DNA of 64,000 bases from NCBI RefSeq assembly GCF_031877795.1, contig NC_133940.1, positions 11,533,985 through 11,597,984 on the forward strand. Direction: 5' to 3'. The position numbers and the translations under genes are program-made. This stretch comes from Strix aluco (lineage: Eukaryota > Chordata > Aves > Strigiformes > Strigidae). The stretch's first letter is position 1. Each line of letters begins with the position of its first letter. Of this stretch, positions 39,656 to 55,863 are shown in pieces. The notes beneath the pieces are model-generated. The model saw only the letters and a list, made by a program, of their open reading frames with translations, searched no databases and had not been told where the DNA came from.

Positions 39656-39660
39656 GCTGC
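39656..39660 (+). repeat. Target-site duplication of the provirus, left copy (GCTGC)
   Basis: GCTGC lies directly before the TG that opens the 5' LTR and is repeated exactly at 45154-45158 after the CA of the 3' LTR. Five bp is within the 4-6 bp range of retroviral integrases. It shows one intact integration event with no later rearrangement. Confidence 0.92.
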
Positions 39661-39836
39661 TGTATCGGGTCTGGCTGAGCCAGAATTGGTTTTCCCCTGT
39701 AGCAGCCCTCATGGTGCTGTGTTTTATGCTGGGAGACATTTCCCCCCCCACAGTGGGACGGGGTGGGCAAGATCTTGGGAGGGGACACAACCAGGACAGC
39801 TGACCCGAACTGACCAAAGGCATATTCCATACCATA

Positions 39837-39843
39837 TGACGTC
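39837..39843 (+). promoter_or_regulatory. CRE/ATF-like site in U3 (TGACGTC)
   Basis: TGACGTC lies 8 bp upstream of the TATA box, a common activator position in retroviral U3 regions. The same site is in the 3' LTR at 44801-44807. Binding is inferred from the motif only. Confidence 0.5.
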
Positions 39844-39850
39844 TGCTCAG

Positions 39851-39856
39851 TATAAA
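39851..39856 (+). promoter_or_regulatory. LTR TATA box
   Basis: TATAAA in the context CAGTATAAAGCTGGG. It predicts transcription starting near 39880, which would be the start of R. The counterpart in the 3' LTR is at 44815-44820 and could drive transcription into the right flank. Confidence 0.8.
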
Positions 39857-39973
39857 GCTGGGAGAAAGGAGGAAGGGGGTGGGGTCACCCTTGGTCCTCC
39901 GAGGCAACCGCTACGCATATCAGAGCCCTGCTTCCTGAGAAGGCCCGACATCGCCTGTTAATGGGAAGTAGAG

Positions 39974-39979
39974 AATAAA
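39974..39979 (+). terminator. LTR poly(A) signal
   Basis: AATAAA lies 120 bp downstream of the TATA box, followed by a T-rich stretch and then GTTGTTTTACC and GGGTTGTTTTG, which are suitable G/T-rich downstream elements. The copy in the 3' LTR (44938-44943) would end the full-length RNA. Confidence 0.85.
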
Positions 39980-40189
39980 TCTGTTTTCTTTTTTTTGCTT
40001 CCGCGCGCGGACCTTTGCTTCGCTTTGCTTATATTAAAACTGCTGTTGTTTTACCCACAAGGGTTGTTTTGTTTTCCTATCTTATTTTCTTTCCCTTCTT
40101 TGCCCTATTGAGAAAAAAAGGGGAAGGGGGGGGAAGTGATAGAGCGACTTGGTGGGTACCTGGCATTTAGCCAAGGTCAAACCACCACA

Positions 40190-40197
40190 GTCTATTT
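40190..40197 (+). other. 8-nt spacer between LTR end and primer-binding site (GTCTATTT)
   Basis: The 3' LTR shows that the integrated U5 end is ...ACA, but the primer-binding site begins only after GTCTATTT. In most retroviruses this gap is about 2-3 nt. Because primer removal fixes the U5 end of the linear DNA just before the binding site, integrase or another nuclease would have trimmed 8 nt here. This follows from standard retroviral end formation and has not been tested for this element. Confidence 0.8.
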
Positions 40198-40215
40198 TGG
40201 CGCCCAACGTGGGGC
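40198..40215 (+). promoter_or_regulatory. Primer-binding site for tRNA-Lys1,2
   Basis: TGGCGCCCAACGTGGGGC is the exact complement of the last 18 nt of tRNA-Lys(CUU) including CCA. The same primer is used by spumaviruses and several betaretroviruses. In ordinary retroviruses complementarity ends here, just before the methylated A58. In this element it continues to the first base of the tRNA. Confidence 0.97.
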
Positions 40216-40222
40216 TCGAACC
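40211..40222 (-). promoter_or_regulatory. Pol III B box within the captured tRNA
   Basis: GGTTCGAGCC on the minus strand matches the B-box consensus GGTTCGANNCC-type core. The first T4-or-longer run downstream on this strand is T7, complementary to the A7 at 40113-40119. A precursor would therefore carry a trailer of roughly 80 nt that includes part of U5 in antisense. Confidence 0.6.
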
Positions 40223-40249
40223 CACGACCCTGAGATTAAGAGTCTCATG

Positions 40250-40266
40250 CTCTACCGACTGAGCTA
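40250..40266 (-). promoter_or_regulatory. Pol III A box within the captured tRNA
   Basis: TAGCTCAGTCGG on the minus strand (tRNA positions 8-19, lying at 40266-40255) fits the A-box consensus, and TAGAG follows. Together with the B box it forms a complete type 2 internal Pol III promoter pointing against the retroviral RNA. Activity is an inference. Confidence 0.6.
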
Positions 40267-40267
40267 G

Positions 40268-41176
40268 CCGGGCGAGCGGATTGCTGCCTGGCTGCTTCGA
40301 TGCTGGGATAATGGGGCTGATGCTCAGCAGCTGGAAGGTAAGGAAGCCCAACAGCTGGGTTCCCTTGCTAGAGATCGAGGAATTGAAAGGGGAATTGGAA
40401 AAGAAACAGGAATTTGCAGTCTGTGGAGACGGCTCCTTTCAAGTGTTAAAGCAAGATATCCTTTCAAGGAAGATCTTACGGATAACTCCCCAGGGAAGTG
40501 GGCTACTGCGGATGAAGGTGTCCAGTACCTGAGAGAACTAGCAGTGCTAGAAGTCATCTATAGTGATCCAAATAATGATGAAGCCCCTAAAAATCCAGAG
40601 GATGTCCTGTGCACACGGGCCATGTGGAGGAAGGTGATTAAAGGTGCACCATCCTCGTATTCTGCGGGCTTGGCTGCGATGTACTATCCAGAAATGGATA
40701 TGGGAGAAGGACTAAGATGTACGCCAACTGTGGAGGCAGTCTCTTCCTGGCTTCAGAACTTTGAAGAGAGTCTTGGAACCTCCTCATCTCTACGGGCGAG
40801 TGCCTTAGATGTCAGGAGCACCCCAAGAAATCGGTTCTCTTCCACCCCAGTCAGAGGGAAAGGGAAACCTAGGCGCATGACACGTGGCGAAATTTGGTTC
40901 TTCCTGCGTGACCAGGGGGAGGACATGAGGAAGTGGGATGGTCAACCCACCTTCAAATTGGAAGCTCGTGTACATGAATTGCGAGGAAAGACCCCTGCCA
41001 AGAAGACAACATCCAAGAAGGTTGTTAATGTAGCTGGCGTGAAACCGCAAGAAAGTAATCAGCGATCTCCCAGATACAGGAAGAATGAGATCACCTCCCT
41101 TGGCCCTGATGAAGGAGTTTCCGGCCTGGCACAGCAAGGGTCAGACAGTGAATACTCTGACCAAGAACAGGAATAG
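40268..41176 (+). CDS. gag: Gag-like frame of the provirus (short, no zinc knuckle), ends in UAG
   Basis: This frame is open from just after a TAG at 40265-40267 to the UAG at 41174-41176, about 302 codons. It has no ATG before 40622, so its start is unsettled: a non-AUG start, or entry from the Met-Gly frame that opens at 40311. The well-formed part starts near 40466 (YPFKEDL, then WATADEGVQYLREL), followed by a helical region with MWRKVIKGAPSSYSAGLAAM and WLQNFEESL, then RGEIWFFLRDQGEDMRKW, and a basic tail with KTPAKKTTSKK. I see no CCHC knuckle and no clear major homology region, which is unlike most orthoretroviral Gag and like spuma-type Gag. At under 310 codons it is short for Gag, so an internal deletion or a compact lineage is possible. 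It shares its frame with Pol. Confidence 0.75.
   Translation, partial: PGERIAAWLLRCWDNGADAQQLEGKEAQQLGSLARDRGIERGIGKETGICSLWRRLLSSVKARYPFKEDLTDNSPGKWATADEGVQYLRELAVLEVIYSDPNNDEAPKNPEDVLCTRAMWRKVIKGAPSSYSAGLAAMYYPEMDMGEGLRCTPTVEAVSSWLQNFEESLGTSSSLRASALDVRSTPRNRFSSTPVRGKGKPRRMTRGEIWFFLRDQGEDMRKWDGQPTFKLEARVHELRGKTPAKKTTSKKVVNVAGVKPQESNQRSPRYRKNEITSLGPDEGVSGLAQQGSDSEYSDQEQE
40311..40532 (+). CDS. Overlapping 73-codon Met-Gly frame, possible Gag N terminus
   Basis: ATG at 40311 begins MGLMLSSWKVRKP, a Met-Gly start with downstream Ser and basic residues, as in myristoylated Gag proteins. A charged, helix-prone stretch follows (EIEELKGELEKKQ). It is in a different frame from the main Gag frame and stops at 40530-40532. 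The downstream Gag-like sequence in the other frame becomes convincing near 40466, so a one-base loss or a minus-one shift between about 40445 and 40470 would explain the layout. I see no classic slippery heptamer there. It could also be a chance frame. Confidence 0.5.
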   Translation: MGLMLSSWKVRKPNSWVPLLEIEELKGELEKKQEFAVCGDGSFQVLKQDILSRKILRITPQGSGLLRMKVSST

Positions 41177-41206: not shown

Positions 41207-44200
41207 AGGGATGATCGGGTGTATTGGACAGTGTGGATTCGATGGCCTGGCACATCAAATCCACAGAAGTACCAGGCTTTAATCGATACCGGGGCACAGT
41301 GTACATTAATGCCATCAAGTTATAGAGGGGCAGAACCTATCTGGATCTCAGGAGTGACAGGCGGATGTCAAGAACTGTCAGTACTGGAGGCCGAGGTTAG
41401 CTTGACCGGGGATAAGTGGGAAAAACATCCCATTGTAACTGGCCCAGAAGCCCCTTGTATCTTGGGCATTGACTACCTCAAGAGGGGGTATTTCAAAGAC
41501 CCAAAAGGATACCGATGGGCTTTTGGTGTGGCCAGTGTGAACACAGAGAAGGTCAAACAGTTGTCTAATCTGCCTGGCCTCTCAGGAGATCCTTTTGTTG
41601 TAGGACTGTTGCGAGTTAAAGAACAACAGGTGCCAATTGCCATGAGGACCGTGCACCGACGGCAGTATCGCACGAACCGAGACTCTCTGGCTCCCATCCA
41701 AGAACTGATCCGTCAACTGGAGACCCAAGGTGTCATCAGTAAGACACATTCGCCTTTTAATAGCCCAATATGGCCAGTGCGAAAGTCTGATGGAGGGTGG
41801 AGGTTGACAGTAGACTATCGTGGCCTGAACGAAGTGACGCCACCACTGAGTGCTGCTGTACCAGATATGTTAGAGCTCCAGTATGAGCTAGAGTCAAAGG
41901 CAGCCAAGTGGTACGCCACAATCGACATCGCCAATGCATTCTTTTCAATTCCTTTGGCAGAAGAGTGCAGGCCACAGTTTGCTTTCACGTGGAGGGGTGT
42001 CCAATATACCTGGAATCGACTACCCCAGGGGTGGAAGCACAGCCCCACTATTTGTCATGGACTAATTCAAACTGCACTGGAAAAGGGTGATGCCCCTGAA
42101 CATCTACAGTACATCGATGACATCATTGTGTGGGGCAACAAGGCAGAAGAAGTGTTCAAGAAAGGACAAAAAGTAATTGAGATTCTTCTGAGAGCTGGGT
42201 TTGCCATAAAGAAAAGCAAGGTCAAGGGACCAGCACAGGAGATTCAGTTCTTGGGAATAAAATGGCAAGATGGACGCCGCCATGTGCCTATGGAGGTTGT
42301 CAACAAGATAGCAGCTATGTCTCCACCGACCAACAAGAAGGAAACACAAGCTTTCTTAGGACTTGTGGGATTTTGGAGGATGCACATTCCAGGTTACAGT
42401 CAGCTGGTGAGCCCTCTCTATCAAGTAACCCGAAAGAAGAACAATTTTGAGTGGGGTCTTGAGCAACAACAAGCCTTTGAGCACGTCAAACAGGAGATAG
42501 CTCGGGCGGTAGCTCTTGGGCCTGTTCGGACAGGACCAGATGTGCAAAATGTACTTTACACATCAACTGGGGAGCATGGCCTCACATGGAGCCTCTGGCA
42601 GAAGGTAGCAGGTGAAACTCGGGGTCGACCATTAGGATTTTGGAGCCGGGGATATCGAGGATCAGAAGCCCACTACACTCCAACTGAAAAGGAGATACTA
42701 GCAGCATATGAGGGGATTCGAGCCGCTTCCGAAGTTGTTGGTACAGAAGCACAGCTCCTCTTGGCACCGCGATTGCCTGTACTACATTGGATGTTCAAAG
42801 GAAACATCCCTTCTACACACCATGCAACCAGTGCTACCTGGAGTAAATGGGTAGCGTTAATCACGCAACGAGCTCGACTGGGAAAACCCAACCGTCCAGG
42901 AATCCTGGAAGAGATCATGGACTGGCCAGAAGGTAGAGATTTTGGAGCACTGCCTGAGGAGGTGGCTCGTGCCCAAGAAGCACCACCATATAACGAATTA
43001 CCAGAAGATGAAAGGCGGTATGCTTTGTTTACTGATGGATCCTGTCGTGTGGTAGGAAACCATCGAAAGTGGAAAGCTGCTGTGTGGAGCCCCACAAGAC
43101 AAGTCGTTGAGGCCACTGAAGGAGAGGGCGAGTCAAGTCAGTTTGCAGAAGTAAAAGCGATCCAACTAGCCCTAAAGATTGCTGAACGAGAAAAGTGGCC
43201 AGTACTGTATCTCTACACTGACTCCTGGATGGTGGCTAATGCCCTGTGGGGGTGGCTACAGGAGTGGAAGAAGACCAATTGGCAGCGCAGAGGTAAACCC
43301 ATCTGGGCTGCTGCACTGTGGCAGGACATCGCTGCCCGAGTGGAAAACGTGGCTCTAAAGGTACGTCATGTAGATGCCCACGTGCCCAAAAGCCGTGCCA
43401 CCGAAGAACATCAAAACAATGAGCAAGTAGACAAGGCTGCTAAAATTGAAGTAGCTCAGCTGGACCTGGACTGGGAGCGCAAGGGTGAGCTATTTGTAGC
43501 TCGATGGGCCCATGAAACATCCGGGCATCTCGGGAGAGATGCAACGTACAGATGGGCTCGTGATCGAGGGGTGGACCTGACCATGGAGGCCATCTCACAG
43601 GTCACTCATGAATGCGAAACATGTGCTGCAATCAAGCGAGCCACACGAGTAAAGTCTCCCTGGAACAGAAGGCGATGGCTGAGTTTTCGATATGGTGAGG
43701 CCTGGCAAATTGACTATATTGGACCATTGCCACGAACACGCCAAGGCAAGCGCTACATACTCACTATGGTGGAAGCAACTACTGGTTGGCTTGAGACGTA
43801 CCCTGTAAATCATGCCACTGCCCGAAATACCATCTTAGGTCTTGAAAGGCAAATTTTATGGCGACATGGTACTCCTGAAAGAATCGAATCAGACAATGGA
43901 ACCCATTTTCGAAATAATCTCATAAACTCCTGGGCAAAGAAACATGGCATTGAGTGGGTGTATCACATCCCTTATTACCCACAAGCGTCTGGAAAGATTG
44001 AAAGATACAATGGACTGTTGAAGACTATGTTGAGAGCATTGGACAATGGGGGATGGAAACACTGGGATATAAATTTAGCAGAAGCCACTTGGCTAATTAA
44101 CACCAGAGGATCTGTTAACCGTCCTGGTCCTGCCCAAACAAAACCCCTTCATACTGTGGGAGGAGATAAGGTCCCTGTAGTACACACAGGGAAATGGCTG

Positions 44201-44356
44201 GGGAAGGCAGTATGGATTGCTCCTCCCTTGGGAAAAGGCAAGCCCACTCGTGGGATTGTTTTTGCTCAGGGACCTGGATGTACTTGGTGGGTAATGCGGG
44301 AGAATGGGGCTACTCAGTGTGTGCCTCAAGGAGATTTAACCTTGGGGGGGAAATAA
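41177..44356 (+). CDS. pol: Pol polyprotein: protease, reverse transcriptase, RNase H, integrase; intact
   Basis: Continuous with Gag after the UAG; 1059 codons with no stop until TAA at 44354-44356. Numbering from the GTG at 41219 as residue 1: protease DTGA at 23-26 and ILGIDYL at 81-87; RT with WRLTVDYRGLN near 194-204, catalytic D236 in TIDIANAFF and YIDD at 298-301 (42110-42121); RNase H with D606, E644, D668 and D719; integrase zinc finger H765, H770, C799, C802 and catalytic D832, D892, E928 (the D,D35E spacing). All key residues seen are present. It would make viral DNA and integrate it. It has no ATG of its own near the start, so it probably depends on readthrough from Gag. Motif forms favour class III (ERV-L/spuma-like). 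Confidence 0.95.
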   Translation, partial: RAPASSQEEERDDRVYWTVWIRWPGTSNPQKYQALIDTGAQCTLMPSSYRGAEPIWISGVTGGCQELSVLEAEVSLTGDKWEKHPIVTGPEAPCILGIDYLKRGYFKDPKGYRWAFGVASVNTEKVKQLSNLPGLSGDPFVVGLLRVKEQQVPIAMRTVHRRQYRTNRDSLAPIQELIRQLETQGVISKTHSPFNSPIWPVRKSDGGWRLTVDYRGLNEVTPPLSAAVPDMLELQYELESKAAKWYATIDIANAFFSIPLAEECRPQFAFTWRGVQYTWNRLPQGWKHSPTICHGLIQTALEKGDAPEHLQYIDDIIVWGNKAEEVFKKGQKVIEILLRAGFAIKKSKVKGPAQEIQFLGIKWQDGRRHVPMEVVNKIAAMSPPTNKKETQAFLGLVGFWRMHIPGYSQLVSPLYQVTRKKNNFEWGLEQQQAFEHVKQEIARAVALGPVRTGPDVQNVLYTSTGEHGLTWSLWQKVAGETRGRPLGFWSRGYRGSEAHYTPTEKEILAAYEGIRAASEVVGTEAQLLLAPRLPVLHWMFKGNIPSTHHATSATWSKWVALITQRARLGKPNRPGILEEIMDWPEGRDFGALPEEVARAQEAPPYNELPEDERRYALFTDGSCRVVGNHRKWKAAVWSPTRQVVEATEGEGESSQFAEVKAIQLALKIAEREKWPVLYLYTDSWMVANALWGWLQEWKKTNWQRRGKPIWAAALWQDIAARVENVALKVRHVDAHVPKSRATEEHQNNEQVDKAAKIEVAQLDLDWERKGELFVARWAHETSGHLGRDATYRWARDRGVDLTMEAISQVTHECETCAAIKRATRVKSPWNRRRWLSFRYGEAWQIDYIGPLPRTRQGKRYILTMVEATTGWLETYPVNHATARNTILGLERQILWRHGTPERIESDNGTHFRNNLINSWAKKHGIEWVYHIPYYPQASGKIERYNGLLKTMLRALDNGGWKHWDINLAEATWLINTRGSVNRPGPAQTKPLHTVGGDKVPVVHTGKWLGKAVWIAPPLGKGKPTRGIVFAQGPGCTWWVMRENGATQCVPQGDLTLGGK

Positions 44357-44624
44357 TCTGTGAGCTGAGTTGTATGTTGCAGGAAGTGATGGAGGAAGTA
44401 GGAACGACGAAGAGTGAACCAGATACATGCGATGATGACCCAAACCTAGCCGGTGCTGGAGTCCAACAGTCAAACATACTGCTCCTGTCCTGAACATCCA
44501 CCTTGACAGATGGCAGCCAAGTCACTGAACATCTAGAGGAGTGAAGAAAGCTTACGGAATGAATAAATGAGTGTTATGTGGGACCTGGGCATGACGTAAA
44601 TGGTATGGAATAAGGGGTGGAGAC
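44357..44624 (+). other. Proviral 3' tail without env
   Basis: Only 268 bp separate the Pol stop from the 3' LTR. No frame here encodes a signal peptide, a membrane segment or an envelope-like protein; the open frames that cross it run antisense or out of frame. The element therefore lacks env and should move only within cells unless helped. AATAAA occurs at 44562-44567 by chance or as a weak early poly(A) signal. Confidence 0.85.
44607..44623 (+). promoter_or_regulatory. Polypurine tract for plus-strand priming
   Basis: A purine-rich run interrupted by two T residues (GGAATAAGGGGTGGAGA) ends one base before the 3' LTR, the usual place of the plus-strand primer. The interruptions make it weaker than textbook tracts, but no better one lies nearby. 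Confidence 0.7.
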
Positions 44625-45153
44625 TGTATCGGGTCTGGCTGAGCCAGAATTGGTTTTCCCCTGTAGCAGCCCTCATGGTGCTGTGTTTTATGCTGGGAGA
44701 CATTTCCCCCCCCACAGTGGGACGGGGTGGGCAAGATCTTGGGAGGGGACACAACCAGGACAGCTGACCCGAACTGACCAAAGGCATATTCCATACCATA
44801 TGACGTCTGCTCAGTATAAAGCTGGGAGAAAGGAGGAAGGGGGTGGGGTCACCCTTGGTCCTCCGAGGCAACCGCTACGCATATCAGAGCCCTGCTTCCT
44901 GAGAAGGCCCGACATCGCCTGTTAATGGGAAGTAGAGAATAAATCTGTTTTCTTTTTTTTGCTTCCGCGCGCGGACCTTTGCTTCGCTTTGCTTATATTA
45001 AAACTGCTGTTGTTTTACCCACAAGGGTTGTTTTGTTTTCCTATCTTATTTTCTTTCCCTTCTTTGCCCTATTGAGAAAAAAAGGGGAAGGGGGGGGAAG
45101 TGATAGAGCGACTTGGTGGGTACCTGGCATTTAGCCAAGGTCAAACCACCACA
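44625..45153 (+). repeat. 3' LTR, 529 bp
   Basis: The same length as the 5' LTR with no difference found in a base-by-base reading by eye. TATA box at 44815-44820, CRE-like site at 44801-44807, poly(A) signal at 44938-44943. It ends with ACCACCACA directly before the right target-site copy. LTR identity means the two copies have had little time to diverge. Confidence 0.97.
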
Positions 45154-45158
45154 GCTGC
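45154..45158 (+). repeat. Target-site duplication of the provirus, right copy (GCTGC)
   Basis: Exact match of 39656-39660, directly after the terminal CA of the 3' LTR. Confidence 0.92.
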
Positions 45159-54748: not shown

Positions 54749-55863
54749 TGACAAGGTTTTGGTAGTGGGGGACTACAGGGGTGGTCTCTGTGAGAAGCTG
54801 CCAGAAACTTCCCCCGTGTCCGACAGAGCCAATGCCAGCCGGCTCCAAGATGGACCCGCCGTTGGCCAAGGCCAAGCCCATCAGTGATGGTGGTACCAGC
54901 TCTGGGATAACAGATTTAAGAAGGGGGGGAAAACCCCCTGTGCAACAGCAGCCAGGAGAATGGAGTGAGAAAATGTGAGAGAAACAACCCTGCAGACTCC
55001 AAGTGAGTGAAGGAGGAGGAGGAGGTGCTCCAGGCACCAGAGCAGAGGTTCCCCTGCAGCCCGTGGTGCAGCCCGTGGTGAGGCAGCTGTGCCCTGCACC
55101 CAGGGAGCTCCACGGGGGAGCAGACACCCACCTGCAGCCCGGGGGGGACCCCACACGGGAGCAGGGGGATGTGCCTGAAGGGGGCTGTGACCCCGTGGAG
55201 AGCCCACACTGGAGCAGGCTCCTGGCAGGAGCTGTGGCCCCATGGAGAGAGGAGCCCACAGTGGAGCAGGTTTGCTGGCAGCACTTGTGACCCCGTGGGG
55301 GACCCACGCTGGAGCAGCCTGTGCCTGAAGGGCTGCAGCCTGTGGGAGGGACCCACGCTGGGGCAGTTCGTGAAGAGCTGTAGCCTGTGTGCGGGAAGGA
55401 CTCATGTTGGAGAAGTTCACAAAGGGCTGTCTCCTGTGGGAGGGACCCCACACTGGAACAGGGGAAGAGTGTGAGGAGTCCTCCTGCTGAAGAGGAAGGA
55501 GTGCCAGGAACAACATGTGATGAACACACAACCGCCATTGCCCATCCCCCTGCACTGCTAGGCAGGAGGAGGTACAGAAAACTGGGAGTAAAGTCAAGCC
55601 TCAGAAGAAGGGAGGGGTGGGGAGAAGGTGTTCTTAAGATTTGGGTTGTTTTCTCATTATCCTACTCTGATTTGATTGGTAAGAAATTAATTTTTCCCTG
55701 AGTCTGTTTTGCCCATGACAGTAATTGATGAGTGATCTCTCCCTGTCCTTATCTTAACCAACGAGCCTTCAGTTATATTTTCTCTCCCCTGTCCAGCTGA
55801 GGCAGGGAGTGATACAGTGACTTTGGTGGGCACCTGGTGACTGGCTAGGGTCAACCTACCACA
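54749..55863 (+). mobile_element. Solo LTR of a class III (ERV-L-like) avian retrovirus, about 1.1 kb
   Basis: Opens near TGACAAGGTTTTGGTAGTGG and closes with GGTCAACCTACCACA. It includes a GC-rich U3 (GGACCCGCCGTTGGCCAAGG), a TATA-like GATTTAAGAAGG near 54912-54923, and a long central part of degenerate repeats (ACCCACGCTGGAGCAG-type units, about 55180-55460). U5 ends in GTGATACAGTGACTTTGGTG and GGGCACCTGG, which resembles the provirus U5 end. The usual poly(A) signal position reads AAGAAA (55681-55686), so it is probably decayed. No internal retroviral sequence lies on either side. No clear target duplication is visible, so the ends are uncertain by a few bases. Confidence 0.85.
55180..55460 (+). 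repeat. Degenerate tandem repeats inside the solo LTR
   Basis: Units of about 45-60 bp each carry CCCGTGG or CCTGTGGGAGGG, then CCCACGCTGGAGCAG or a variant, then CTG- or AGCTGTG-type words, repeated about six times with drift. They create long but meaningless open frames on both strands. Confidence 0.7.

Follow-up and report, generated by a model that had tools for sequence, protein, structure and literature searches.

Complement of a whole primer tRNA-Lys(CUU) behind the primer-binding site of an endogenous retrovirus, apparently fused inside gag

Introduction

As a rule, RT halts at m1A58 of the primer tRNA when it makes plus-strand strong-stop DNA. A provirus in the window analyzed here, i.e. 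the whole stretch of 64,000 nucleotides, raises the question how the complement of an entire primer tRNA can come to stand behind a retroviral primer-binding site (PBS). The first-pass annotation of this DNA had proposed that RT once read through A58 to the tRNA 5' end, that the additional 58 nt persist as an insertion in the leader and that the encoded CCA speaks against recombination with a tRNA gene. It had further considered that the genomic RNA could pair with its primer over up to 76 nt, or that the tRNA body acts as a structured leader. Here, we present an analysis of the tRNA complement, of the provirus and of the sequence adjoining the tRNA, which suggests that the tRNA marks the junction of a deletion reaching into gag.

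Results

A complete antisense tRNA-Lys(CUU) continues the primer-binding site

When read as reverse complement, positions 40198-40273 constitute a complete 76-nt tRNA-Lys(CUU) on the minus strand, the 3' CCA included. The scan of the minus strand for tRNAs, as suggested in the first-pass annotation, bore this out: ARAGORN detected a single tRNA across the 64-kb window, which is tRNA-Lys (ctt) at 40198-40273 on the minus strand, and Rfam family RF00005 (tRNA) scored 65.1 bits at the same positions (E 7e-12, gathering threshold 29). Nuclear tRNA genes of animals are not known to encode CCA and are followed at a short distance by a Pol III terminator. At this locus the CCA is encoded and the nearest run of at least four T begins 79 nt downstream of it, where seven A residues at 40113-40119 (T on the minus strand) provide a possible Pol III terminator. 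Without the CCA, the tRNA is identical in 73 of 73 nt to the tRNA-Lys(CTT) sequence given in the methods section of a study dealing with human methionyl-tRNA synthetase (excerpt of PMC8216282). Moreover, a 36-nt antisense piece is contained in the rat probe among the probes for tRNA-Lys CUU of HeLa and rat that are printed in PMC3411763.

The first 18 nt (40198-40215, plus strand) represent the PBS, which complements the 3'-terminal part of tRNA-Lys(CUU), CCA included, as judged by ARAGORN and by reading of the sequence. The remainder of the tRNA, 58 nt reaching from A58 to the 5' nucleotide, has its complement at 40216-40273 according to ARAGORN, Rfam and reading. Complementarity to the tRNA thus proceeds directly 3' of the PBS, where a primer over-extension sequence (POS) would be located, and comprises 58/58 nt. 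The runner-up site in the window, both strands considered, reaches only 31/58 matches, which excludes a chance match. The position of A58 is represented by T at 40216, the correct base. Antisense strand and register are those expected from copying of a primer tRNA, and the segment ends at the mature 5' end.

Structure and class of the provirus

The tRNA complement is part of a plus-strand provirus comprising all elements of an LTR retrovirus or ERV, i.e. two LTRs, a TSD, a PBS, a polypurine tract and the order protease-RT-RNase H-integrase. Reading of the sequence located the 5-bp TSD GCTGC at 39656-39660 and 45154-45158, and the polypurine tract in front of the 3' LTR at 44612-44623. The 5' LTR (39661-40189; TGT...ACA, with TATAAA at 39851 and AATAAA at 39974) and the 3' LTR (44625-45153), whose ends were likewise read from the sequence, are identical to each other in 529/529 nt, which indicates a recent insertion. 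Protease, RT, RNase H and integrase are encoded by pol (41219-44356), an ORF of 1045 aa recognized by its frame and by Pfam, PDB and motif comparisons. A spacer of 8 nt, likewise read from the sequence (40190-40197), separates the CA end of the LTR from the PBS; the corresponding distance is 2 nt in the avian foamy virus consensus (LTR to 576, PBS from 579; excerpt of PMC6955096). Either integrase needs to remove eight bases, or there is a different reason for this unusual spacer.

Pfam assigned RVT_1, RNase_H and rve to pol and also yielded a protease match, while Integrase_H2C2 remained under its curated cut-off. A motif search identified DTG in the protease and both DYRGLN and YIDD in RT. 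Among solved structures (PDB), the RT piece is best matched by Pr125Pol (7o0h, E 7.3e-34), a foamy virus protein, and the integrase piece by 3dlr (E 2.7e-19) followed by PFV integrase 3l2q. On this comparison, which covers solved structures only, Pol is closest to foamy viruses. The env gene, the accessory genes and the long genome that characterize foamy viruses (Spumaretrovirinae) were not found in this provirus; merely 268 nt lie between the pol stop codon and the 3' LTR, leaving no room for env. The 5-bp TSD, the TGT/ACA ends of the LTRs and the presence of DYRGLN and YIDD in RT agree with features of class III elements given in the excerpt of PMC8278194, which includes DYRGLN for XtERV-S. 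The integrase spacing retrieved by a pattern search of pol is DX59DX35E and does not match the DX58DX35E given for class III in the same excerpt. No dUTPase following integrase was present among Pfam matches at E 0.001. From solved structures and motifs, we read the element as a young, env-less, spuma-like ERV of class III (ERV-L-type) that is primed by lysine tRNA.

The open frame adjoining the tRNA

A clean 58-nt insertion, as assumed in the first-pass annotation, would be followed by leader sequence. However, no leader is visible after 40273, and the tRNA is followed instead by gag-like coding sequence without a start. The pol frame contains no stop codon from 40268 onward, thus beginning within the last six bases of the tRNA complement, and continues for 302 codons to a TAG at 41174. 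ATG is lacking in its first 118 codons, the earliest one being located at 40622. Counted from 40274, the frame comprises 300 stop-free codons, which was reached in 0/5000 dinucleotide shuffles (longest 224, mean 81). Codon usage was assessed with a model trained on pol, which is weak (0.31 bits per codon for held-out pol). For 40274-40400, it assigned +18.7 bits to the pol frame and -3.8 and -14.4 bits to the other frames; in several later gag windows, frame 0 was preferred. When summed upstream from 40544, the score amounts to 18.2 at the stop codon at 40265 and, with stops ignored, climbs further to 34.5 at 40022 inside the LTR. Hence, the codon model alone fails to place the junction. The presumed gag product matched no Pfam family and no relative in the PDB (best E 1.3), and its structure model was set aside as useless (pLDDT 38).

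Judged by the open frame, its position between PBS and protease, the terminal TAG and a half-motif described below, the stretch 40274-41176 looks like gag minus its beginning. Frame, codon usage and motif together place the putative junction between the tRNA 5' end and gag-like coding sequence at 40273/40274. As gag-like sequence without a start codon follows the tRNA, the latter would mark the junction of a deletion. A 73-codon ORF starting with MG (40311-40529) was considered as beginning of gag and rejected. It uses the wrong frame (frame 0), and its length is within chance, since an equally long run occurred in 149/2000 shuffles of its 287-nt surroundings. The fact that no myristoylation signal is listed for ERV-L or XtERV-S Gag in the excerpt of PMC8278194 contributed to this decision. 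At the other end, a single TAG (41174-41176) separates presumed gag and pol within the same frame, which is comparable to read-through retroviruses and to XtERV-S.

The idea of a functional structured leader gained no support, as the gag frame lacks a start codon near its beginning and no sign of a working leader was seen. RNA folding z-scores were -2.28 for the antisense strand, -1.55 for the sense strand and -3.08 for the 121-nt stretch 40190-40310, but they were not read as a sign of function because the complement of a tRNA is expected to fold anyway.

A half-motif of the MHR next to the tRNA

The MHR of capsid follows the consensus QX3EX4(hydrophobic)X2R and comprises residues 238-257 of the 530-aa XtERV-S Gag and 281-300 in ERV-L (excerpt of PMC8278194). 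The peptide ERIAAWLLR, whose E is encoded by the first codon after the tRNA, fits EX4(hydrophobic)X2R, which is the second half of the MHR. This half-motif has one match in the 302 residues of presumed gag and three in the 1045 residues of pol. When the residues were shuffled, 0.26% of the shuffles had it at that exact spot, 2.1% had it among the first 8 residues and 55% had it at some position; these figures are post hoc, since seven motif patterns were tried on presumed gag, three of them partial forms of the MHR. The patterns for the full MHR, for GQR, which like the MHR is a Gag feature of class III ERVs, and for Cys-His had no match in the 302 residues. From the E of the motif to the TAG, there are 300 residues, and XtERV-S Gag has about 289 over the same part. 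The place of the half-motif and this agreement in length point to a junction within the MHR. As deduced from one copy, the 5' end of the tRNA appears to be fused inside gag, in place of the leader and the gag N-terminus. Comparison with XtERV-S provides a very rough estimate that, besides the leader, some 240 gag codons may be missing.

Searches for relatives and sequence surroundings

The RT piece had no confirmed relative among viral contigs (5 pattern matches) or genome contigs (14 pattern matches), and the same holds for the gag piece among viral contigs (1 pattern match). A 32-mer of the extended PBS gave 0 matches in viral contigs and a 24-mer gave 0 in genome contigs. As the collections scanned do not comprise bird genomes, these misses say little. 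The 18-mer of the PBS, with one base degenerate, matched three viral contigs, in which 18, 15 and 17 of the following 58 positions agree with the tRNA complement; these matches were put down to chance. In the open-licence literature searched, no title or abstract mentions a provirus in which an entire primer tRNA is contained, which may be different for print beyond it. The 32-nt extended PBS was found in no paper of this literature, while pieces of the tRNA matched PMC8216282, PMC3411763 and PMC5639113.

Elsewhere in the window, dispersed repeats are present as inverted copies at 38464-38581/57387-57504 (90%) and 50433-50533/57074-57174 (85%). A 12-base tail motif, presumably CR1-like and fitting a bird or reptile, occurs at four places (38470, 50125, 57487 and 63737), two of which lie within the pair 38464-38581/57387-57504. 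A stretch of 59 nt at 55805-55863 shares 76% identity with a portion of the LTR (E 1.5e-5); it is perhaps a decayed relative of the LTR, or merely a similar sequence of low complexity.

Discussion

The provirus carries the complement of a whole primer tRNA, which ends exactly where the tRNA does, and a long stop-free stretch without early start codon adjoins it in the pol frame. In the explanation that we consider best, with a probability of roughly 70%, the provirus records a faulty second strand transfer: copying of the primer tRNA went beyond m1A58 as far as the 5' nucleotide, and the DNA, being too long, found a new priming site within gag. While plus-strand strong-stop DNA was being made, RT would ignore the m1A58 stop of tRNA-Lys(CUU) and reach the 5' nucleotide, which would generate a DNA tail of 58 nt having no partner in the minus strand beside the PBS. 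The 3' end of this DNA could prime anew at a more distant site of the minus strand, within gag and close to the MHR, and be extended from there. The intervening loop, consisting of the leader and the N-terminal part of gag, would be lost upon resolution of the mismatched strands and the product would integrate as a gag-defective provirus. If the frame is gag, one event of this kind, i.e. read-through followed by a jump, would account for three findings: a tRNA present in full, a boundary precisely at the tRNA 5' end and the adjoining start-less frame. As gag is broken whereas pol has remained open and the LTRs do not differ, we infer that the accident probably occurred in the cycle that made this copy or shortly before.

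Read-through of A58 to the tRNA 5' end had already been invoked in the first-pass annotation and is the simplest source of the segment, whose register continues that of the PBS and which stops exactly at the mature 5' end. According to the excerpt of PMC13191261, in vitro copying of an unmodified tRNA proceeds as far as the 5' nucleotide (section 10; for tRNA-Lys3 and HIV-1) and synthesis runs beyond A58 upon mutation of TRMT6. The transfer-competent products listed in this excerpt have ends near A58, Psi55 and U54, and the full-length copy is not among them, which fits a rescue by a jump. A caveat applies to a fully modified tRNA, since bypass of m1A features misincorporation (excerpt of PMC4787781). 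Although misincorporation would often be expected, the correct T is present at 40216, and it is plausible, if unproved, that the tRNA copied was under-modified or under-methylated.

An alternative reading takes the antisense tRNA as the fixed leader of a whole family, that is, as an extreme form of POS. The minus strand would then hold all 76 nt, so that plus-strand DNA ending anywhere in the tRNA could still anneal. The element would tolerate an unmethylated A58, and each read-through would rewrite the segment from the tRNA, thereby keeping it perfect. Precedents are the short over-extension sequences reported for lentiviruses and spumaviruses in the excerpt of PMC13191261 and the avian foamy virus PBS, which is printed with 22 nt in the excerpt of PMC6955096. 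The structural matches of Pol point in the same direction, with PFV integrase among those of the integrase and Pr125Pol, a foamy virus protein, heading those of RT. The predicted hybrid with the primer is also far more stable with 76 bp (-175.5 kcal/mol) than with 18 bp (-41.8 kcal/mol). The extended pairing proposed in the first-pass annotation would thus be very stable, but there is no sign of its relevance in a copy without a gag start. The start-less gag-like sequence right against the tRNA suggests a defective product and not a working leader, and we regard a family-wide leader as unlikely. It is likewise improbable that a replicating family shares a maximal over-extension sequence, freed from the m1A58 stop and rewritten in each cycle by the host tRNA; if this were true, a cellular tRNA would prevent part of a retroelement genome from diverging from its own sequence.

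The segment could also stem from DNA, if the PBS had recombined with a nuclear tRNA-Lys gene, or undergone gene conversion, via the 15 nt that both share and had thereby been lengthened to the whole tRNA. The CCA, which had been put forward against a tRNA gene, is no objection, since the PBS already supplies the TGG and a gene without CCA recombining through the PBS would yield the same product. Furthermore, a DNA source predicts absence of errors from modified bases, and none are present. The better argument is the exact 5' boundary: the second end point of recombination must coincide with the mature 5' end of the tRNA, carrying along no 5' flank, and the same point must coincide with the deletion in gag, which renders this route improbable. 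That the provirus bears its own antisense gene for the primer tRNA, transcribed by Pol III, is compatible with the acceptance of the full tRNA by ARAGORN and Rfam, with A and B box regions as in an intact tRNA, and with the seven-T run on the minus strand. However, animal tRNA genes are not known to encode the CCA or to have a trailer of 79 nt, and a recent accident requires no function, making such a gene very improbable. Equally remote appears an assembly artefact joining tRNA sequence to a provirus, given that the join keeps the register of the PBS and stops exactly at the tRNA 5' end, and that the element is otherwise coherent with its TSD and identical LTRs.

Read-through of A58 has been reported from laboratory systems with unmodified A58, and the full-length product is not listed as usable for transfer (both in the excerpt of PMC13191261). 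If the provirus indeed contains a whole tRNA joined inside gag, read-through would occur in nature and be rescued by a jump with deletion. An antisense tRNA continuing the PBS to the exact 5' end would then be a simple genomic signature, and a survey of many genomes for it could show how frequent such accidents are. The same signature would possibly also serve to count gaps of m1A58 methylation in the germ line.

Deletions arising from strand-transfer errors in retroviral vectors were reportedly described by Pulsinelli and Temin in 1991 and in similar work. The likeness would lie in an aberrant second transfer that re-primes downstream, with sequence next to the PBS being deleted. With XtERV-S and ERV-L, the provirus shares YIDD and DYRGLN in RT, the LTR ends TGT...ACA and a TSD of 5 bp, and in XtERV-S gag and pol also form one frame split by a stop codon (excerpt of PMC8278194). 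Env is absent here and from ERV-L alike. The provirus differs from both in having no dUTPase detectable by Pfam, a lysine primer, a truncated gag and the integrase spacing DX59DX35E instead of DX58DX35E. The POS described for lentiviruses and spumaviruses (Muthuswami 2002, cited after the excerpt of PMC13191261) resembles the present segment in that tRNA complementarity extends beyond A58 directly downstream of the PBS. However, according to that excerpt a POS is short, resides in a working leader and helps products ending at Psi55 or U54, whereas in this provirus the complementarity covers the other 58 nt completely and adjoins gag-like sequence. Closest to the proposed first step is tRNA-Lys3 lacking m1A58, which the excerpt of PMC13191261 describes for in vitro transcripts, TRMT6 mutants and the A58U replication defect. 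There, copying proceeds past A58, and on unmodified tRNA to the 5' end, as is proposed for the present case, but the products from tRNA-Lys3 are laboratory intermediates, whereas here the product is a provirus that has integrated and forms part of a genome assembly.
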